A DNA stretch of 32,154 nucleotides, taken from the NCBI GenBank assembly GCA_013178155.1, contig JABLXH010000053.1:1-32154 (forward strand), read 5' to 3'. Shown piece after piece: positions 14,345-25,317 of this stretch (position 1 is the first letter of the stretch; every line of letters starts with the position of its first letter). The position numbers were made by a program, and so were the translations under genes. The stretch comes from Armatimonadota bacterium. GTDB taxonomy: Bacteria; Armatimonadota; Zipacnadia; Zipacnadales; UBA11051. The notes under the pieces were generated by a model, which saw only the letters and a list, made by a program, of their open reading frames with translations, was not told where the DNA came from and searched no databases.

Positions 14345-17281
14345 ATGCGTCAGATCACGCTCTCGCTGTTGGTGGTACTGGCCGGTGTCGCCCTGGCAGC
14401 ACCCGGCTGTGCGCAGGGCCTGCCCGAACTGCCGGACCTGACTGCCGACGAACGAGCGGCCCTGCCTCAGGGTGACTACACCCCTGCCCAGAGCTGGGAG
14501 GCCGAGGTGGCCCCCCATCTCACCGGGCGCGTCGTCCAGGACCTGGAGGCCAGCGGCGGCAACGCCCTGGAGGCGACGCCGGGGCGCGACAAGCCGGACA
14601 CATTGCTCTTCGGCCCGTACCTCGAGCTGGAGCCCGGCAACTACGTCGCCTTCTTTCGTGTGAAGCTGCTGGAGCCCCTGGAAGACGGGGTGGCCCTGCG
14701 CCTCGATGCCTGTGTCGAGTATGCCCAGCAGTTCCTGGGGGCGCGCGAGTTGGCCGCCCCTGACCTGGTGGTCGGCAGGTACGCTGAACTGGCGGTGGGC
14801 TTCCAGTACCCTGGCGGCAAGCTGGAGTGTCGCGCCACGTGGCCTGGCGAGGCGGCGCTGCGAGCAGACCGGGTCAGCCTCTACCGGGTGACGGGCGGTG
14901 ACTTCACCCGGACGGGCTGGCGAGTGCCGGAGGCCAAGCCCAGCGGCCTGCCCAGGGACCTGGCCTACATTCCTGTCGAACGCCCCTTTCCCGATGTCTT
15001 TCCACGCTCCGGGCCCCCGGCCGAGGAGTTGCTGATCGCCGACCTGCGGTCCGAGCGTCAGGACATGCGGCTGCTGATGTACTGCCTGCAGGGCCTCGTG
15101 AACCGCTCCCAGCCCCGGCTGTACTGCATCTCCCACGACATGGACGCCTTCTGGCTGGAGCAGATGACGCAGCGCGGCTTTGTTGCCCGCACCAAGCCGA
15201 TGGCCCAGCCGCGCGACCTGCTGCAGCAGTTCCGCGACGTCTATCAGGGCCTAATCATCACCGATCCGGCGCTCCCAGCCAGCAAGAACGTCGCGACGAT
15301 GCTGGCGAGCGTCCGCGATGGCCTGGCGGTCTCTCCCAGGCTGGCGCGGGAGCTGGATTTGCCGGTACTTGAGGATCTGCGAGGGCGTTGGACGACCAGC
15401 GCCGAGGCCTACCGCTGGGCCTTCGACCACCTCTGGCCCGAACTGAACCACTTCGTAGTCGCCTGCTCTTGGCCTGATCACCTGGGCCTGCGGGACTATC
15501 TGGTGCAGCACAAGGTCTTCATCTTCTGGCTTTCGGGGCCGCTGGATGGCGCCCGCAAGTACGCCTCTCCCGATGCCGAGGTCCGGCTGATGGAGGAACT
15601 GCTGGCCCAGATGCCCGCAAACATCCCGGTGATGAGCTACCCGTGGGCGGGCAAGGATGTCGGCATCGGGGAGGGGCCGGGGGTCAGCCTGTTCGCCGAG
15701 TTCGGCAAGTACCTCGTGGGCTCCATTGACACGACCAATCTGAGTGTCCATTCGGGCCTGCGCCTACCGGAGCCCCGCCAGCAACCCGCGCCGCCGGCCC
15801 CGGCCCTGGACCCGACCAAGGTCTACCTGTCGGTCATCATCTCCGACGGCGACAACCTGCCGGTGCTGAAGGTCAACAACTTCCCGCAACTCTGGCAGGA
15901 CCCGTTGCGCGGTCAGTTCCCGATCGGCTGGACGCTCTGCCCGGCGGCCCATGTGCTGCTGCCGGACCTGGTGGACTACTACTTCCGCACCGCTACGCCG
16001 CAAGACGCCTTCCTGGGCGCGGTGTCGGGCGTGGGCTACACTTACCCCGACCTCTACGGCAAGCGCTTCCGCGACGGTGACCGCCAGCGGGTCTACGATG
16101 GTTTCCTGGACCAGACAGCGGAGTACATGCGTCGCAGCGACCTGCGGGAGCTCTGGATCATGAACGCGACCCGCCCGGAGGTCATTGCCCGTTTCGCTGA
16201 GCGCATCCCGGAACTGGACGCGCTCTTTCCGGACTACGGCCGGCGGGTGCTCTCGGGCGCCGAGGCAACCCACGCGACGGCCCGCAACGTGCCCGTCTTC
16301 CACGCCATCGGCCGGTGGGCGGAGGGCCTCAAGCGCGAACAGCAGATCGCCAACCTGGTGGCCGAGATCCAGGAGATGACCCCCCGCCAGCGCCCGGCCT
16401 TCCTGCACTTCTTCGTCCTCAACTGGTTCGCCGACTTGCCGCTGCTGCAGGAGGTGCTGCAGAGGCTGGGGCCTGACTACGTCGCCGTTCGCCCGGACCA
16501 CCTGGCCCAGCTATGGCACGAGGATGCGCGGCAGCGACAGGTGGACCTCACCCTGCCGCCGACAGCCGCCTACCTGGAAGGACAGCCCTTGCGCCTGCAG
16601 GGCACGCTCCGCAATCTGACCGACCAGGCGCTCTCGGTCTCGCTTACCCTGCAGGGCGCGGGAGAGGCGGCGACCATCGCGCCGGAGCAGGTGGAGTTGG
16701 GCCCGGCGGAGGAGACGTCGGTGATCGTCGGGGGGGTACCCACAGAGAAGCTCGCTACCATCGCGTGCAGCGGCCTCTTCGGGACGCGCACGACCGAACT
16801 GCAACTGACTCCCATCGCGGCCAGCGACATCATTGGCGAGGTCGGGACACTCGGCGCACTCAGCCCGGCGCTGTACCTGGAGGCGGAGGCGCTGGCGCAC
16901 CGCTCGGGTCGCGAGGCAGGGGACGCGGCGGCCAGTGGCGGCAAGTTCTGGTCGGCACAAAAAGGGCAAGCAGAGCCGGGGTATATCGTGTATGGGCCCT
17001 ACCAGCCGCTCGAGGCGGGCAGCTACCTGGCCCTGTTTCGCCTACGGCGCGATGACCCGGGCGATGGGCTGCTGGCGCAGGTGGACACCTGCGTCGGGGG
17101 AGGGTCGCCGCAGACCGGCTTGCGTGATGTCCGGTCCGACGAACTCCCCGAGGGCCAGTTCCGGTGGGTGGCTGTCCCCTTCACCCATCCCGGCGGGCCT
17201 TTCGAGAGCCGGGTTCTATGGTCCGACGCGGCGTCGCTGGCCGTGGATGCCATTGCGGTGTGGCGGGTGCACGAGCGCTGA
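14345..17281 (+). CDS. Secreted GxGYxYP-family putative glycoside hydrolase with duplicated flanking domain
   Basis: 978 residues. The name motif is present exactly as GVGYTYP (562-568) in the central barrel (about 490-740), preceded by the family's N-terminal domain (about 205-480). Residues 1-24 are a Sec signal peptide (MRQITLSLLVVLAGVALAAPGCAQ); the Cys at 22 lacks a canonical lipobox. Residues about 740-840 are an Ig-like linker. Residues 50-183 and 843-976 are two copies of the same beta-rich module, one before and one after the core. GxGYxYP proteins are assigned to glycoside hydrolases only by structure and context; no activity is firmly established to my knowledge. It is monocistronic: divergent from the M24 operon and convergent with GH127. 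The start follows an AAAGGGG sequence at a somewhat long spacing. Confidence 0.88.
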   Translation: MRQITLSLLVVLAGVALAAPGCAQGLPELPDLTADERAALPQGDYTPAQSWEAEVAPHLTGRVVQDLEASGGNALEATPGRDKPDTLLFGPYLELEPGNYVAFFRVKLLEPLEDGVALRLDACVEYAQQFLGARELAAPDLVVGRYAELAVGFQYPGGKLECRATWPGEAALRADRVSLYRVTGGDFTRTGWRVPEAKPSGLPRDLAYIPVERPFPDVFPRSGPPAEELLIADLRSERQDMRLLMYCLQGLVNRSQPRLYCISHDMDAFWLEQMTQRGFVARTKPMAQPRDLLQQFRDVYQGLIITDPALPASKNVATMLASVRDGLAVSPRLARELDLPVLEDLRGRWTTSAEAYRWAFDHLWPELNHFVVACSWPDHLGLRDYLVQHKVFIFWLSGPLDGARKYASPDAEVRLMEELLAQMPANIPVMSYPWAGKDVGIGEGPGVSLFAEFGKYLVGSIDTTNLSVHSGLRLPEPRQQPAPPAPALDPTKVYLSVIISDGDNLPVLKVNNFPQLWQDPLRGQFPIGWTLCPAAHVLLPDLVDYYFRTATPQDAFLGAVSGVGYTYPDLYGKRFRDGDRQRVYDGFLDQTAEYMRRSDLRELWIMNATRPEVIARFAERIPELDALFPDYGRRVLSGAEATHATARNVPVFHAIGRWAEGLKREQQIANLVAEIQEMTPRQRPAFLHFFVLNWFADLPLLQEVLQRLGPDYVAVRPDHLAQLWHEDARQRQVDLTLPPTAAYLEGQPLRLQGTLRNLTDQALSVSLTLQGAGEAATIAPEQVELGPAEETSVIVGGVPTEKLATIACSGLFGTRTTELQLTPIAASDIIGEVGTLGALSPALYLEAEALAHRSGREAGDAAASGGKFWSAQKGQAEPGYIVYGPYQPLEAGSYLALFRLRRDDPGDGLLAQVDTCVGGGSPQTGLRDVRSDELPEGQFRWVAVPFTHPGGPFESRVLWSDAASLAVDAIAVWRVHER
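14492..14893 (+). repeat. Protein-level repeat, copy 1 (GxGYxYP protein residues 50-183)
   Basis: Shares with copy 2 the pattern GPY-x2-LE-x-G-x-Y-x-A-x-FR, then D-x-CV, then PGG and a W residue before the final hydrophobic-R-V. Compare GPYLELEPGNYVAFFRVK here with GPYQPLEAGSYLALFRLR in copy 2. Likely a carbohydrate-binding-type beta-sandwich. Confidence 0.75.
16871..17272 (+). repeat. Protein-level repeat, copy 2 (GxGYxYP protein residues 843-976)
   Basis: Second copy of the flanking module, at the C-terminus. Ends in DAIAVWRV, matching ADRVSLYRV at the end of copy 1. The copies are clearly related in protein but too diverged to suggest recent duplication. Confidence 0.75.
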
Positions 17282-17296
17282 CTGTTCCCGACCGGT

Positions 17297-20086
17297 CTAC
17301 TCCAGCCCGCCGGTTGCAGCCAACCGACGGATCTCGTCGGCGGTCAGTGCGCGGGCGTAGAGCGCGAAGTCATCGAGCCTGCCCAGGAAGCACTCATTGC
17401 CGCCGGTGAAGTTGGGGTTGCAGCCCACGCCGACATTGTGGGCGGCGGAGAAGAGCTGAGCGGGTGCGGCGCAGGTGGCCCGCGCCTCGCCATTGACGTA
17501 GAGCGTGAGCACGGCTCCCTCCTTTACCGCCGCCAGGTGTACCCACTGTCCGTTCTCCAGCCGTATGCCCTCGCTGCCGGCTCCCGTCGAGCCCTCGATG
17601 CGCGCGAAGACGGCGTGGTCGTTGACCACGATCCGCAGGGGGTCGTCAACCGGAACCGCCCAGGCTGAGAAGATTTGCTGGTTGCGGTCGGTGGGCAGGC
17701 CCTCGGGACAGGCCCAGATACAGACCGTGTAGTCCTCGCCAGGGAACTCCCCCACCTCATAGGTCAGCTTGCTCGTGGCGCCGTTACAGGCGATGGCTCC
17801 GGTGGGATTGCCCTTCCGGTCCATGGCGGCGGTGATATCGCGCTGAGTGTCCAGCGTCCCGTAGCTGGGTGTGCCGTCGCCATCCAGGGGACTGGCGACG
17901 ACGACCTCTCCCGGGCCACGCACCGGCGGCTCAGCCTCCGGTGGCACGGTGTTGGGCAACGAGGCGTCCACCGTGAAGCGCCATGGTCCATTCGCGGCGA
18001 GGGTCTCCCCGTGCTCGTTGACCGCGACGACATGCCAGCGATAGGTCCCGTTCGCCTGCAGCCCTTCGGACAACACCACCCGGGTGCCCTCCAGACCCTC
18101 GCGGACGACGACCGGCCCGGCGTCCGGGCCATCGGGAGCAATGACCAGCCGGAAGCGCCGCCCGGTCTGGGCCGAGCGCCGGTAGCCGGTCCACTCGAAA
18201 GCCGTCGGGCCGGCGGCGATGGCTTCACCATCGCGCGGGTGCTTCAGGTAGAAGGGTGCCGGCACCCCGCCGGTCGCCGGGAGCCACGAGCGGTAGTGGG
18301 TGCCATGCGCGCCGGCAGTCGCAAAGTCACAGAGTGTCACCTCGCGCCCGTCCGTCGCCCTCGCGGCCACCAGAACCAGGGGCGCGAAGCGCGTCTGCGG
18401 TGCGCGGACCTCCCGGAGGCGCAGACTGCCCAGGTCCAGGGCCGGCAACTCCGACTCGTCCAGGTCGCTGAAGTGCTGGTCCCAGGCCAGCAGCAGCGGT
18501 CCGCGGTAGATGGCCGCCTGACCCTGGCGACCGAGTTCGCCAGTCCAGTACCGGGGCGTCATGTCCAGCCGCAGGACCACCGTGTCGCCGTCGGCCCAGT
18601 CGCGCTCCAGGGCCAGGTACTGCCCTGCCGACACCTCAGAGACTACCTCACCGTTGACGGCCACTCCAGTTCGGTGGGACCACGCGGGGATACGGAGGCG
18701 CAGGTTCAGCCGCCGGGGCTGGTCGAGTCCCACTTGCAGCCGAACCACACCCTCGGCGGGGTACTCCGTCTCCTGGGTCAGGCGCAGACTGGACCCGTCG
18801 GCCAGCTTGATGTCTGTCGTGCCCGCCCCGTAGAAGTTCACCACCGGCCCCGCCTCGTCCACCATCACGGCCCACTCCGGCAGCATCCCCAGCCCGCGCG
18901 GACCGTTGACCGAGCAGCAGTTGAGCTCCGGTGTGCCGAAGCGTGCCTGGAAGACGATGGCGTGGGCGCTGGCGGCACGCACGCCGTCTGGGGGCGTGTC
19001 GTAGGTCCACCAGCGGCCCGAGGGGTGCTGGGCGCCCAGCAGGGCGTTCCAGGTGGACAGCTCCAGCTCATCGGCCACCGTCGAGTCGCCCGTCAGGCGC
19101 AGCATATCGGTGCTCAGCACCATCCAGGCAATGGTGCAACAGGTCTCGATAGCCCCCTGACTGTAAGGGTTACCCACTGCTTGCTCGCCGGTGGTGAAGC
19201 CGCCGGTCGGGTGGCGGTCGTAGTTGCGGATGCTGGTCCAGTGCTGGATGAAGGCCCGCCGGTAGCGCTCGTCGCCAGTGATGCGCCACAGCTCCACCAG
19301 GCCCTGCAGGCCATGCAAGCTTTCCCAGCGGGGCTTGGGCGTGCGGTAGAAGTCGGTGCCGGCGAGAGCGCTGCGCAGATAGTCGCCCGCTGCCGGGTCC
19401 TCCCACTCCTTCTCGATCTGTCGCACCAGGCGGAGGTAGCGGTCCTCGCCGGTCGTCCGGTAGAGCCAGCCCAGGGCATGGATGATGGAGAGGTTCATCT
19501 CGGTGGACCCGGCCTCCACCATACGCCGGCCAGTGTCGAGATAAATGGCACAGACCAGGTCGGCGACGCGCCGGGCGCAGGCCAGCGCCGCCTCGTCACC
19601 GGTCTCCTCATGCCACAGGAGCAGGGCCACCAGGCAATGGTAATGCCCCCACAGGTCCCAGTGGCCCAGGAGGCGCTCCTGCTTGGGGAAGGGCCCCAGG
19701 TAGCCGTCCTCGGCCTGGGTGCCGATGAGTTCGACGATGACGGCGGCCACATGCTCGCGGAGACGCGGGTCGTCGGTCAGGCGCAGGGCGCCGATGGCCG
19801 AGGTGAGGTACTTCCCCACGAACTCCCCGGCCCAGGGCACCAGGTCCGGCGGCGGCTGGCGGTCGCGGAGGCGGAACATCTCCAGCATCCCCGGGTTGGC
19901 CTGGGGTGCGGGGAGGAGCCAGTTCTGCGTGTTGGCCGCGACGCGCTCCCCGAGCGGACCAGACAGGCGGTACTGACCACGTGGGCTGTGCAGCTTCATG
20001 CTTCTGGCCTCCCTGAGGGCACCATGGCCGTGACTTGGCAGCCAGGAGGCAAACAGCGTGAGTGCGGCCAGACGCGAGGTGATCAT
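17297..20086 (-). CDS. GH127 (DUF1680) beta-L-arabinofuranosidase-like enzyme with fibronectin-like and LamG-like domains
   Basis: 929 residues; the ATG at 20086 follows AGGAG at 8 nt. Residues 1-23 are a Sec signal peptide. Residues about 30-600 form the (alpha/alpha)6 barrel and beta domain of GH127. The zinc and cysteine-nucleophile set of HypBA1-type enzymes is visible as E314, C316 (in AIETCC) and C390-C391 (in ELNCCSVNG); E301 (TTGEQAVG) is a possible acid/base, with a loop shorter than in HypBA1. Residues about 600-715 resemble a fibronectin III-like domain, and about 735-929 a LamG/concanavalin-like domain (GRLDDFALYARALTADEI). The expected reaction is release of beta-L-arabinofuranose from glycans or hydroxyproline-rich glycoproteins outside the cell; other GH127-clan sugars are possible. 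It is divergent from the membrane-protein gene. Confidence 0.9.
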   Translation of the reverse strand: MITSRLAALTLFASWLPSHGHGALREARSMKLHSPRGQYRLSGPLGERVAANTQNWLLPAPQANPGMLEMFRLRDRQPPPDLVPWAGEFVGKYLTSAIGALRLTDDPRLREHVAAVIVELIGTQAEDGYLGPFPKQERLLGHWDLWGHYHCLVALLLWHEETGDEAALACARRVADLVCAIYLDTGRRMVEAGSTEMNLSIIHALGWLYRTTGEDRYLRLVRQIEKEWEDPAAGDYLRSALAGTDFYRTPKPRWESLHGLQGLVELWRITGDERYRRAFIQHWTSIRNYDRHPTGGFTTGEQAVGNPYSQGAIETCCTIAWMVLSTDMLRLTGDSTVADELELSTWNALLGAQHPSGRWWTYDTPPDGVRAASAHAIVFQARFGTPELNCCSVNGPRGLGMLPEWAVMVDEAGPVVNFYGAGTTDIKLADGSSLRLTQETEYPAEGVVRLQVGLDQPRRLNLRLRIPAWSHRTGVAVNGEVVSEVSAGQYLALERDWADGDTVVLRLDMTPRYWTGELGRQGQAAIYRGPLLLAWDQHFSDLDESELPALDLGSLRLREVRAPQTRFAPLVLVAARATDGREVTLCDFATAGAHGTHYRSWLPATGGVPAPFYLKHPRDGEAIAAGPTAFEWTGYRRSAQTGRRFRLVIAPDGPDAGPVVVREGLEGTRVVLSEGLQANGTYRWHVVAVNEHGETLAANGPWRFTVDASLPNTVPPEAEPPVRGPGEVVVASPLDGDGTPSYGTLDTQRDITAAMDRKGNPTGAIACNGATSKLTYEVGEFPGEDYTVCIWACPEGLPTDRNQQIFSAWAVPVDDPLRIVVNDHAVFARIEGSTGAGSEGIRLENGQWVHLAAVKEGAVLTLYVNGEARATCAAPAQLFSAAHNVGVGCNPNFTGGNECFLGRLDDFALYARALTADEIRRLAATGGLE
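17307..17330. terminator. Possible hairpin at the convergent gene ends
   Basis: CGGTTG-CAGC-CAACCG forms a 6-bp stem with 4-nt loop, extended by 3 bp beyond one mismatch. It lies inside the last codons of GH127, near the 15-nt gap to the GxGYxYP stop. No T tract, so a terminator role is weak. Confidence 0.25.
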
Positions 20087-20227
20087 CGGACGGACGCTCC
20101 TGGACGGCGTTGCCGATGGACCCCTTCCTTGCGGTTGCCCCGGTGTCCTGCCGGCAGGTCACAGCACGCGACCGAGGGAACCGTCCAAGGTAAGACTTGC
20201 AACCCCGCACCGTTTCAGTGTGTCCAC
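20087..20227. promoter_or_regulatory. Divergent promoter region between GH127 and the DUF6785-like gene
   Basis: 141 nt between divergent starts. It must drive both genes. No convincing sigma70 pair is seen. It contains the palindrome at 20147-20158. Confidence 0.55.
20147..20158. repeat. 12-bp perfect palindrome CCTGCCGGCAGG
   Basis: Perfect dyad in the divergent region; same CCTGCC/GGCAGG arms as the repeat at 14266-14285, but with no spacer. Candidate regulator binding site, unproven. Confidence 0.45.
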
Positions 20228-22147
20228 ATGGGTGACAGCAGACCCCTGCTAGCCGGTGATACCGCACCGCAGCGCCCGGTGACAGGGCGTGCGCTGGTGC
20301 TAGGGCTGGTGCTGATCCCGCTCAACGCCTACTGGGTCATCATGGCGGAGATGCGTTGGTACCAGATCCTGACCCTGAACCCCTTGTTCGTCACCCCGGT
20401 CTTCTTCCTGCTCGCCCTCGTCGCGTTGAACCGTCTGCTGGTCGTGGTGCGCCCTGCTGCCAGGTTCACCGTAGCCGAGCTGCTCACCGTCTACGTCATG
20501 TTGGCCATCTCCTGCACGGTTGCCACCCACGACTACATCATCAACCTGATGAACACATTGGGGTGGGGGGCCTGGTTCGCCACGCCGGAGAACAAGTGGG
20601 CCGACAACATCCTGCCCTACATGCCCCGCTGGGCCTACGTATGGGATACATCGGCCCTGCGGGGCTACTACGACGGCGGCGGGGGCCTGTATCAGGCCGA
20701 TGTGCTGATGCCGTGGTTGCTGCCTCTGAGCATCTGGCTGGCCTTCATGCTGGTCATGTTCGGCACCATGCTGTGCCTGAACGTCCTGGTGCGCAAGGCC
20801 TGGATCGAGGAGACCAAGCTCAGCTTCCCGGTGGTGCGCCTGCCGCTGGCCATGGTGGGCCTGGACACGCCGGGGCTGTTCCGCTCGTGGGCCATGTGGC
20901 TGGGCGCCGCCTTTCCGCTCATCAACGGCACCCTTAGCGGCCTCAACAAGCTCTGCCCGACCGTGCCCTTCGTCAACACCCGCGCCGTCTTCCCCAGCTT
21001 CCGGAATCCGCCCTGGAACAGCCTGGGCGCGCCTCGGTCGTTCTACCCCTTCGCCATCGGCCTGGGGTACTTCGTGCCGCTGGACGTGCTGTTCTCCTGC
21101 TGGTTCTTCTATCTCTTCATCAAGGCCCAGATGGTCGTGGGCCACTACGCCGGCCTGCGGCTGCCGGGGTTCCCCTATGTCATGGAGCAGGGCATTGGCG
21201 CCTGGACGACCTACGGGGTCCTGCTACTGTACATCACGCGGAGCCACTGGCAGCGCGTACTTGGTGCTCTGTGGAACCGCAGTGACCTCAGCGACGCCGA
21301 TGAGTTGCTGCCCCATCGCGTGGCGTTCTGGGGGGCCATGGCGGGCATGGCGGCGCTGGTGGTGTTCTGGCGCGTCGTGGGGATGACTGTGTTCCCGGCG
21401 ATCCTGGTGGTGGCCGTGTACTTCCTGCTCGCGCTGTCCATCACCCGCGTACGGGCCGAGGCGGGCAGCCAGCACACGGTCTGGGACCTGGAACCCTCCA
21501 ACCTCTTCCGCCTGGTGGACAGCCGCCTGCTGGGGCGCGGCAACATCATCGGCGCGGGCATGAGCCACTGGTTCTGGCGCCTGAACCGCAGCCACGCCAT
21601 GCCGACGCAGCTTGAGGCTCTGAAGATGTGGCATGACCTTGGCCTAAGCCCCCGCAGCCTGCTGGTGCCGCTGGTGGTGGCCACGGTCGCCTCGTGCGTG
21701 GCCGGGCAGTGGGCCTGCCTGCAGGTGGGCTATGACCAGGGCCTGGCCACTCGCTGCATTGGCTTTGCCCGGTGGACGGGCATCGAGATGTTCAGCAGCA
21801 TGAACTCGATGCTGGTGGCCGGGCACAGCTTCGAGTGGCCGCGGCTGGCGGCAGTGGTGCTCTCTTCTCTGTTCACGCTGCTGCTGTGGGTCCAGCAGTC
21901 GCGCTGCGCCTGGCTGTGGCTACACCCGCTGGGCTACTGCGCCGGGCCGGGCATGATCTGGGTCTGGTGCCCCTTCCTGATCGCCTGGGTATTGAAGTCC
22001 GTGATCGTCCGCTACGGCGGCCAGGGCGCCTACCGCCGGGCGATCCCCTTCTTCCTCGGCCTGGTCCTGGGCGACTACTTCATCGGGTCGGTCTGGGCGG
22101 TGCTCAGCCCGGTCCTCAACATTCAGGGGTACCAGATCTTTCACTGA
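20228..22147 (+). CDS. DUF6785-like polytopic membrane protein (candidate transporter)
   Basis: 639 residues from the ATG at 20228. The frame is open far upstream (to 17675), but that part is antisense to GH127 and unlike real protein. No clear ribosome binding site precedes this ATG; a leaderless or weakly initiated message is possible. The protein has about a dozen hydrophobic segments, beginning with ALVLGLVLIPLNAYWVIMAE and LFVTPVFFLLALVALNRLLVV, then conserved soluble stretches (FATPENKWAD, LPRWAY-like MPRWAYVWD, and RKAWIEETKLSFPVVRLPLA). This matches large membrane proteins called DUF6784/DUF6785 in Armatimonadota and Planctomycetota, which have no known function. Divergent pairing with GH127 suggests sugar or oligosaccharide uptake or export; this is inference. 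Confidence 0.8.
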   Translation: MGDSRPLLAGDTAPQRPVTGRALVLGLVLIPLNAYWVIMAEMRWYQILTLNPLFVTPVFFLLALVALNRLLVVVRPAARFTVAELLTVYVMLAISCTVATHDYIINLMNTLGWGAWFATPENKWADNILPYMPRWAYVWDTSALRGYYDGGGGLYQADVLMPWLLPLSIWLAFMLVMFGTMLCLNVLVRKAWIEETKLSFPVVRLPLAMVGLDTPGLFRSWAMWLGAAFPLINGTLSGLNKLCPTVPFVNTRAVFPSFRNPPWNSLGAPRSFYPFAIGLGYFVPLDVLFSCWFFYLFIKAQMVVGHYAGLRLPGFPYVMEQGIGAWTTYGVLLLYITRSHWQRVLGALWNRSDLSDADELLPHRVAFWGAMAGMAALVVFWRVVGMTVFPAILVVAVYFLLALSITRVRAEAGSQHTVWDLEPSNLFRLVDSRLLGRGNIIGAGMSHWFWRLNRSHAMPTQLEALKMWHDLGLSPRSLLVPLVVATVASCVAGQWACLQVGYDQGLATRCIGFARWTGIEMFSSMNSMLVAGHSFEWPRLAAVVLSSLFTLLLWVQQSRCAWLWLHPLGYCAGPGMIWVWCPFLIAWVLKSVIVRYGGQGAYRRAIPFFLGLVLGDYFIGSVWAVLSPVLNIQGYQIFH

Positions 22148-22209: not shown

Positions 22210-25200
22210 CTACCGCCCTACCTTTACCACCCGCAGATCCTCGGGGCCGAGTGTGCCGATGAGCTGCAGCTTGTCCCCCACCCGACTCGCCCCGGCATCA
22301 GTGTCCGCTAGCACATCGTGCAGACGGTTCGCCTCGACTTTGAGGGCCTTCAGGTCCACTGCCAGCCGGTAATCCTGCGGCTGGTCCGTGGGGTTGAAGA
22401 GGGCCAAGTAGAGCTCTTCGCCCCGACCGTAGCGCTCGATCCAGACCTGCGGATTGCCGGTGGTGGCGTGGGTCAGCGGCTCCCACCCGGCGGCGCTAAG
22501 CTTCTGGTGCAGTGGCACATAGCGTTTGAACAGATGCCGGTCACGGTTGTAGATCTCCGGTCGGCTCCAGTACGTGGCGCTGGCGGCGTTGTGGGAGAAG
22601 AAGCTGGGGGCCATGCCATAGAAGACCGCCCGCTTCATGTACTTCTCCACCAGGTCGGGAGTGAAGGCGGCGAAGTCGGTGTTTTGGAGTAGCAGGTAGG
22701 GCCGCTGGTAGCACAGCGCGCGCTTCAGGTTGCACTCCTGGTCGGTCATCGGCCTCCAGGTGCCACCCGGGTACCAGTTGGTTTCCACCCCCATCAGGTC
22801 CAGCATCGCCGCTGGGTGGGGGAAGCGCAGGAGGACCGAGTTGGCGAACGCGGTGCGACCCTCGGCATGCATCTGCTGGCTGACGTCTTTGACGAACTCG
22901 CAGGAGGCGAACATCAGCAGTTCGGCCGGAAGCCCCTCCATAGTGGTGTAGACGAGAGGAGTCTGCGCCGCGCCCCAGTGCCGTCGGTCGAAGTCCAGCA
23001 TTGAGGCACCCATTTCCAGGGAGTCGAAGTAGGTGCCATCCACCCAGACCTTGAGGTCCTCAGTGGGCTCCAGTCCCGGGTTGAGGACATACTCCCGGTC
23101 CTGCCCGGCGACCCGCACCGAGAAGTCGTCGAACCACACCTTGCCGGAATGGTTCAAACGGAACAGCCCGTAGACATAGACGACCAGGACGGGCGCCGGC
23201 AGGTCAATGACCACTTCCTGCCGCTCCCAGTCGTGGGTGCCGGGTGTGAAGGGTGCGACCAGGACCGCCGTCTTCCCATTCTTCAGCGCAATGTCGCAGT
23301 ACAGGGAGTAGTCGGCATCCGGGTTGCCGGTCACCCCCTCGGCCTTGCTCCAGGCGCTGACCGTGATCTTGCCGGGAGCGGCCTGGTCCACCATGACACT
23401 CTGCGACAGACCGTGCGCCTGACCGATGACCGGCATGTCGCACACGGCCCCTTGCGAGCCGTTGCGCCCCTCGCCGGGCACGGCCTCGTACCCGTCACCC
23501 CAGAACCGCCAGCCCGGTGCAATGGTCGGCGGGGTATCTAGATCGGTGCGGATGGCCTTCCAGAGAAGCTGCCCCTGGTTCAAGGGAAGCTCGTCGGTGG
23601 TCGGGATGTCCGGGTCAGGGTTGTTGGTGAACAGCGCGCCGTCGCACCACGGCGCGTTGGTAATGGCCACCACCAGTTGACCGTCGCTGTCACGGATCCC
23701 CGAAACCTCGGTCGCCACGGCTCGCGTCTGCTTCTCCGCGAGCTGCCTGGCGAACAGCTCCTGGGCGGCCTGCAGTGTCCGGGGCAGATCGCCCATGGCC
23801 ATCCAGTAGCTGGTCGGCTCCACATAGGTGTAGGTCAGGATGCCGTGGGCCTCGTCGAAGGCCGGGTTGTTGGTGCCCTCCTTGAAGGCAAGGCCGAAGT
23901 CCTGGAAGCCCTGGACACCGGCGATGTCGTCGAAGGCCACCCACAGGCCCTCCTGCTTCAGCCGCTTGACGAAGTACTCCGGGAACAGCCGGTAGTAGTG
24001 GTCCAGCGCGTGGCGGAAGTCACCGGGGGCGGTCACCTGGTAGAGCACGAAGGAGAAGGGGGCCTTACCCGGGGCATGAGTGAAGTCCCGGCTCAGGCCG
24101 AAGTCCTGCACAGCGTACAGCTCGCCGCTGGGCTCGTCGTAGGCGAACCGGAAGAGCCGTGGCGGGTCCAGCGGCGCGCCGAGACAGAAGCCGTAGCCAT
24201 CGCGGGTCACACAGCCGAAGGGGTACAGCGACATGCGGCCATTGGCGCCGCAGCCCACCGAGGCGTAGTGTCCGTAACTCTGGCCCGTCTCGATGGTCCG
24301 GGTGTTGCGCACGTCATCATGCCAGACCTCGGCGCCCGGCACCGGTAGCGCCGCATAGACGCTCACCCCACGGTCCTCGCCGGTCAGGTCCTCGACGACC
24401 CCCTCCACCCGCACCGCGCCGGTGGCCGGATCTGTGCGGTAATCAGCGGTCAGCTTCAGGCCCAACTCCTCGTCGGTGGCCTCCCAGTGCGGGAAACCGT
24501 TGACCAGTGTCACCTTGCCGAGCGGCTGGCGGAAGTCCGAGCGCCGCCGGGCGTCACGCAGAAACAGCCCGCCGACCCGTCCCGAGACCGTGCGCCATTG
24601 GCCCGTCGCGCGGTCCAGGAGGATCACCTTGTCGGAGATGCCGGAACCCAGGGAAAAGGCCTGCTCGTCAGTGGCGAAGCCCGGCTCCGCCACCGGCCTC
24701 GGCGCCACGACCGGCAAGCCGTCAAAGGTGGCCGTGCCCTCGGGGAGTTGCAGAGCTTTGAGCGAGAAGTCGTCAAACCACGCGACGCCGGTATGGCGAC
24801 GGAAGATGCCGTGAAACTGCACCTCGCGAATGGGTTTCTCGGGCACCACGGTGATGGTGCGCTTCTCCCAGTCGTGGGTGCCGGTCGAGAAGGGGATGAC
24901 ATTGCCCCACAGCGGTGTGCCGTCGGTGTAGGTCAGGTCCACATAGAGGGAGTAGTCGGCATCGGGACTGCCGGAGACATCCACCGCCTTGCTCCATAGC
25001 TCCGCGATGAAAGGCAGCGGTGTGGTCTGGTTGAGCGGGACCACGTAGGTCAGGCCCATCTCGCCGGCCGCGACGTCGGTGATGGCGCACTTGGCCGCCA
25101 CCTGCCCACTACGGGCGTCCGCGTCCAGTACATAGCCCAGGCCCCAGGGCTGCAGTTCCAGCGCTTGCCCATCGCGCACGTCCTCCAGATCGCCGTTGGC

Positions 25201-25317
25201 GAGCAGCTCCTTGCTGGCCATGGAAGCGTCCAGGGCCTTCTTCACCACGATGGCGCGGGCATGGGCCCCGCCAGCGGTCAGAGCCAGCAGCGCCAGCAGA
25301 GCAAGCAGGGCTCGCAT
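22210..25317 (-). CDS. Secreted hydrolase-like protein with two related carbohydrate-binding modules, one nested in the core
   Basis: 1035 residues; ATG at 25317 preceded by GGAGGG. Residues 1-22 are a leucine-rich Sec signal peptide ending in AHARA. Module A (about 33-188) and module B (about 596-738) are related CBM_4_9-like beta-sandwiches: both contain PDADYSLY, then F-T/S-x-GTHDWE and finally WFDDFS. Between them lie a beta-rich domain (about 215-430) and the first part of a TIM-barrel-like region (LWVAFDDIAGVQGFQDFG, about 457-575). After module B the barrel seems to resume (WVDGTYFDSLEMGASMLDFDRRH, about 758-940), followed by a small beta domain (about 955-1035). Family and catalytic residues are not identified; D463, D464 and D760 are candidates only. 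Related unassigned hydrolases occur in Armatimonadota and Planctomycetota. It is a single gene, divergent from the HAD operon. Confidence 0.78.
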   Translation of the reverse strand: MRALLALLALLALTAGGAHARAIVVKKALDASMASKELLANGDLEDVRDGQALELQPWGLGYVLDADARSGQVAAKCAITDVAAGEMGLTYVVPLNQTTPLPFIAELWSKAVDVSGSPDADYSLYVDLTYTDGTPLWGNVIPFSTGTHDWEKRTITVVPEKPIREVQFHGIFRRHTGVAWFDDFSLKALQLPEGTATFDGLPVVAPRPVAEPGFATDEQAFSLGSGISDKVILLDRATGQWRTVSGRVGGLFLRDARRRSDFRQPLGKVTLVNGFPHWEATDEELGLKLTADYRTDPATGAVRVEGVVEDLTGEDRGVSVYAALPVPGAEVWHDDVRNTRTIETGQSYGHYASVGCGANGRMSLYPFGCVTRDGYGFCLGAPLDPPRLFRFAYDEPSGELYAVQDFGLSRDFTHAPGKAPFSFVLYQVTAPGDFRHALDHYYRLFPEYFVKRLKQEGLWVAFDDIAGVQGFQDFGLAFKEGTNNPAFDEAHGILTYTYVEPTSYWMAMGDLPRTLQAAQELFARQLAEKQTRAVATEVSGIRDSDGQLVVAITNAPWCDGALFTNNPDPDIPTTDELPLNQGQLLWKAIRTDLDTPPTIAPGWRFWGDGYEAVPGEGRNGSQGAVCDMPVIGQAHGLSQSVMVDQAAPGKITVSAWSKAEGVTGNPDADYSLYCDIALKNGKTAVLVAPFTPGTHDWERQEVVIDLPAPVLVVYVYGLFRLNHSGKVWFDDFSVRVAGQDREYVLNPGLEPTEDLKVWVDGTYFDSLEMGASMLDFDRRHWGAAQTPLVYTTMEGLPAELLMFASCEFVKDVSQQMHAEGRTAFANSVLLRFPHPAAMLDLMGVETNWYPGGTWRPMTDQECNLKRALCYQRPYLLLQNTDFAAFTPDLVEKYMKRAVFYGMAPSFFSHNAASATYWSRPEIYNRDRHLFKRYVPLHQKLSAAGWEPLTHATTGNPQVWIERYGRGEELYLALFNPTDQPQDYRLAVDLKALKVEANRLHDVLADTDAGASRVGDKLQLIGTLGPEDLRVVKVGR
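23104..23532 (-). repeat. Nested carbohydrate-binding-like module B (residues about 596-738)
   Basis: Matches module A in the same protein: NPDADYSLYCDIALKNG here against SPDADYSLYVDLTYTDG in module A, and TPGTHDWERQEVVI against STGTHDWEKRTITV. Edges are estimates. Confidence 0.7.
24754..25221 (-). repeat. N-terminal carbohydrate-binding-like module A (residues about 33-188)
   Basis: First copy of the CBM_4_9-like module, directly after the signal peptide. It starts with LLANGDLEDV, the usual opening of such domains, and ends with AWFDDFSLKAL. Confidence 0.7.

Follow-up and report, generated by a model that had tools for sequence, protein, structure and literature searches.

The gene at positions 20228 to 22147 on the forward strand of the window (an entire contig of 32,154 nt) very probably encodes a polytopic secondary transporter of the cytoplasmic membrane. 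Judging by the predicted fold of its product, the sequences of its relatives and the analogy with a characterised plant carrier, it would belong to a divergent branch of the OPT superfamily in which paralogues have diversified, the local copy importing a small compound.

Domains and predicted fold

The reading frame, present in the ORF list and genuine by its Pfam matches, specifies a protein of 639 aa. DUF6785 (PF20581) occupies 20285 to 21742 on the forward strand (467 bits, E 7.5e-140, profile positions 2–498 of 498) and DUF6784 (PF20580) follows at 21851 to 22141 on the same strand (87.7 bits, E 6.6e-25, residues 542–638), where it makes up the C-terminal end of the fold. Both pass the curated Pfam cut-offs, which are 25 and 26.4 bits, respectively. 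The ATG at 20228 is a plausible start, because the N-terminus of the product (...LAGDTAPQRPVTGRALVLGL) is similar to that of the paralogue L016 (...LAGDTPGPRPVTARALILGL). A limited literature search found no paper naming either domain.

An AlphaFold2 model of the protein, built from 36 aligned paralogues of the source genome, has a mean pLDDT of 90.4 and a pTM of 0.92. When compared with the PDB by Foldseek, it gave two significant matches, both to barley Yellow Stripe 1 (HvYS1; E 7.1e-10 and 1.1e-9), the better being 7wst_A (E 7e-10, TM 0.68/0.71). VIA-align matched the same chain over its full length (Z 25.4, 552 residues aligned, rmsd 3.9), while the runner-up, an unrelated fold, reached Z 4.9. 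The match is specific rather than that of a generic helical bundle, given the gap to the next structures in the Foldseek and VIA-align results and the lack of significant structural homologues of the two YS1 domains when these were published (PMC9691689). The sequence-only reading had proposed a transporter candidate and a comparison with transporter folds, and the model bears this out, as it contains the whole OPT/Yellow-Stripe fold and, at the level of fold, is a predicted member of the OPT superfamily. That reading had also suggested a new type of transporter; the OPT/YS1 fold is already known, and what appears to be undescribed is the DUF6785 branch.

The likeness to HvYS1 (7wst/7wsr; YSL branch of the OPT superfamily) extends over the whole length, with 552 of the 639 residues aligned, and includes a broken helix around residues 98–101 of the model that resembles the discontinuous TM2 of HvYS1. 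However, identity is just 12% and HvYS1 is missed by sequence search. DUF6785 proteins are also prokaryotic and hugely multiplied, whereas HvYS1 is a plant iron-chelate carrier. The YSL metal-chelate transporters have features of their own, namely a conserved Fe(III)-DMA site (F130, Y451, K482 and Y551) and the aspartates of the proton site (D446, D490 and D494).

A shared fold is not a demonstrated function, but the mechanism proposed for YS1, proton-coupled and elevator-like (PMC9691689), offers a model for the DUF6785 proteins. By this analogy, a single solute would bind to a mobile core, inside a central cavity, and the core would slide against a scaffold domain like an elevator, with protons or another ion as the probable driving force.

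Sequence relationship to the OPT family

In Pfam, DUF6785 and DUF6784 are two distinct families, neither with an assigned function. The window protein (P0001) has no match to the Pfam OPT family (PF03169) up to E 10, and is therefore not filed under canonical OPT; a search of its genome with PF03169 gave nothing at E ≤ 0.001. When P0001, A1, A4, L132 and A11 were compared by sequence with the PDB, no relative was found and YS1 was not retrieved. A remote link is provided by related proteins. Among the PF03169 matches in 81 genomes (61 related, and 20 behind other loci), DUF6785 proteins form the majority. Several match mostly in the C-terminal half, and some exceed the curated cut-off, such as L145, which scores 29.0 bits against a cut-off of 25.8 and passes the DUF6785 cut-off as well.

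A second OPT-like membrane family was observed in related Armatimonadota (L128, L129, L130 and L132), with members 50–52% identical to L132. Its sole Pfam match is a weak one, the OPT score of 24.5 bits for L132, slightly below the cut-off; matches to DUF6785 and DUF6784 are lacking, and identity to DUF6785 is about 14%. A tblastn search of L132 against plasmids gave no match. In profile–profile comparison, DUF6785 and this second family align colinearly over 569 columns (E 8.5e-6, prob 83), whereas control alignments of SSF and MFS proteins from the same genome gave E 0.16 and prob 0.4. Homology to OPT is thus detectable in sequence by way of relatives (L145) and profiles (E 8.5e-6 against E 0.16). 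An OPT-type secondary transporter is the most likely identity of the window protein, because the YS1 match is full-length and some DUF6785 relatives pass the OPT cut-off.

Gene neighbourhood and candidate cargoes

The sequence-only reading had described the gene as divergent from GH127 with a common control region of 141 nt, and the divergent arrangement and the length of the gap were confirmed. The GH127 gene (17297 to 20086, reverse strand; a beta-L-arabinofuranosidase-like protein with a LamG domain by Pfam) starts at 20086, leaving an intergenic region, delimited by the ORF ends, at 20087 to 20227. The GH127 protein has a hydrophobic, signal-like N-terminus (MITSRLAALTLFASWLPSHGHGA). A near-perfect 20 bp palindrome, GTGTCCTGCCGGCAGGTCAC, at 20143 to 20162 is the sole one in the gap and a candidate operator; 153 of the 20,000 shuffled versions of the gap contain a palindrome of this type, and no other exact copy was found in the genome. 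Searches for a sigma-70-like promoter in the gap and around the DUF6785 gene, and for a terminator around that gene, found none. On its other side, the DUF6785 gene is convergent with a gene for a 1035-aa protein (22210 to 25317, reverse strand) with a hydrophobic, signal-like N-terminus, which has no Pfam match and an insignificant PDB match. A gene truncated by the contig end (1 to 3195, reverse strand) has an F5/8 type C domain, a match to the hydrazine synthase alpha middle domain and a weak cytochrome c match.

By Pfam, the glycan-related genes of the window comprise GH2, GH116, GH127, GH20, GxGYxYP (a putative glycoside hydrolase, 14345 to 17281, forward strand) and a weak heparinase II/III-like match; two peptidases, papain-like C1 and M24, are also encoded. 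As noted previously, no ABC, MFS, TRAP or SusC/D genes occur among the window genes scanned. The proposal that the DUF6785 protein is the only transporter holds for the contig but not for the genome, which has 19 ABC permease, 22 MFS, 8 SSF and 19 SBP_bac_1 matches elsewhere; no TonB plug domain was found in it.

The window copy would most likely take up either a soluble compound released by the glycan enzymes nearby or a small organic molecule related to it, and a glycan breakdown product is a plausible cargo. The narrower proposal, that this copy and its close clade import mono- or oligosaccharides or uronates for the window glycan cluster, is possible, with the balance somewhat against it. 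It is consistent with the divergent GH127 gene and the palindrome between the two genes, with a window GH2 that starts without an obvious signal sequence, and with the neighbours of close relatives. A GxGYxYP gene, near the transporter gene in the window, lies directly downstream of the orthologous one in L047 (67% identical transporter); a heparinase II/III-like gene, a type also present in the window, is directly upstream in L056; and a GH78 rhamnosidase gene lies two genes downstream in L051. However, other close relatives adjoin PhyH-like, HAD or unknown genes, and a paralogue in the same genome with 57% identity lies beside a carbon–nitrogen hydrolase and a ketopantoate-reductase-like gene. 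No sugar appears among the OPT cargoes named in the parts of PMC9691689 and PMC12687453 consulted.

A link to glycosidases in other genomes, which the earlier reading had named as a check, is weak, as family-wide neighbours are varied and the correlation with GH2 is slight. The neighbours include GH32, GH42, GH123, GFO/IDH/MocA, KDPG aldolase, aldo/keto reductase, 2-hydroxyacid dehydrogenase, MTTB and carbon–nitrogen hydrolase. Glycosidases also occur among genes at least five positions from the paralogues, along with more housekeeping genes, and the comparison, which is indicative, showed no clear glycosidase excess beside the paralogues among the matches listed (the best 25 of 39–49 families per list, where one protein can count in several). 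Across 143 genomes, the number of first-look DUF6785 candidates correlates with that of GH2 (rho 0.33), but when genome size is allowed for, the partial rho is 0.14 (p 0.09); for SBP_bac_1, the corresponding partial correlation is 0.12 (p 0.15). Families f5, f28 and f29 are rich in DUF6785 and poor in GH2. Glycosidase linkage is present in the close clade of the window copy, where it is suggestive, and is not evident family-wide; the saccharide part of the original proposal is retained, weakly, for that clade.

Other features of the neighbourhoods were observed. Genes of the MTTB (trimethylamine methyltransferase) and URO-D families adjoin some DUF6785 copies of the same genome, a hint that the substrates of these copies may be methylated. 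In several loci of Poribacteria (e.g., L070, L074, L086, L090, L091 and L102), adjacent genes of about 710–720 aa on the same strand recur in a similar position. The commonest domains in the whole neighbour set are FG-GAP/ASPIC, ankyrin and glycosyl transferase family 3.

A less likely cargo class is that of peptides, glycopeptides, amino-acid derivatives or metal chelates, as in characterised OPT members. The OPT cargoes named in PMC9691689 and PMC12687453 include oligopeptides, glutathione, folate and metal–phytosiderophore complexes, which would agree with such a role, as would the papain-like C1 and M24 peptidases of the window. Forty-odd paralogues per genome, however, are many for metal chelates alone, and the KDPG aldolase, GH32, GFO/IDH/MocA, aldo/keto reductase and 2-hydroxyacid dehydrogenase neighbours point instead to carbon compounds. 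That the protein is a membrane-embedded enzyme or flippase, as its family label of unknown function and the numerous enzymes among the window genes might suggest, is highly improbable in view of the full-length OPT match (Z 25.4) and the predominance of transporters among the PDB matches listed for the model.

Family size and significance

For an OPT-type importer of this kind, the unexpected element is the size of the family, not the fold. The source genome has 45 DUF6785 matches, representing about 42 genes, and the family occurs in 123 out of a sample of 151 genomes from the phylum, where first-look candidates number 13 at the median and 48 at most; these candidate counts serve as a proxy for copy number, and in the source genome 45 candidates yielded 45 matches. 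Many Poribacteria also have DUF6785. In a FastTree reconstruction, 37 copies from the source genome fell into at least 27 separate lineages that are mostly long-separated, which indicates that the expansion is old. A first conserved-block search across 36 paralogues found no conserved stretches. One copy (G000:C68:37769-39270; L020 16856-18810) is divided between two gene calls, with a TAG within the profile match, and is probably a broken paralogue. Paralogues have probably become specialised for a wide range of small nutrients.

A broader role can be put forward tentatively, and is somewhat less likely to be right than wrong: that DUF6785/DUF6784 proteins are an undescribed OPT-fold family serving as the main secondary importers of carbohydrates and organic acids in Armatimonadota and Poribacteria, where they have multiplied to tens of paralogues, with the window copy a sugar transporter. 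If so, they would fill the role played elsewhere by SusCD, TRAP or ABC systems. Whatever the cargo, two Pfam families of unknown function, found in most of the sampled Armatimonadota genomes, gain a predicted fold and a likely role, which fills a gap in the picture of food uptake by the mostly uncultured Armatimonadota, and by Poribacteria. Of the solved structures searched, only a plant iron-chelate carrier of the OPT superfamily matched over the whole length, and the superfamily is now extended to a large bacterial branch with a testable range of substrates.
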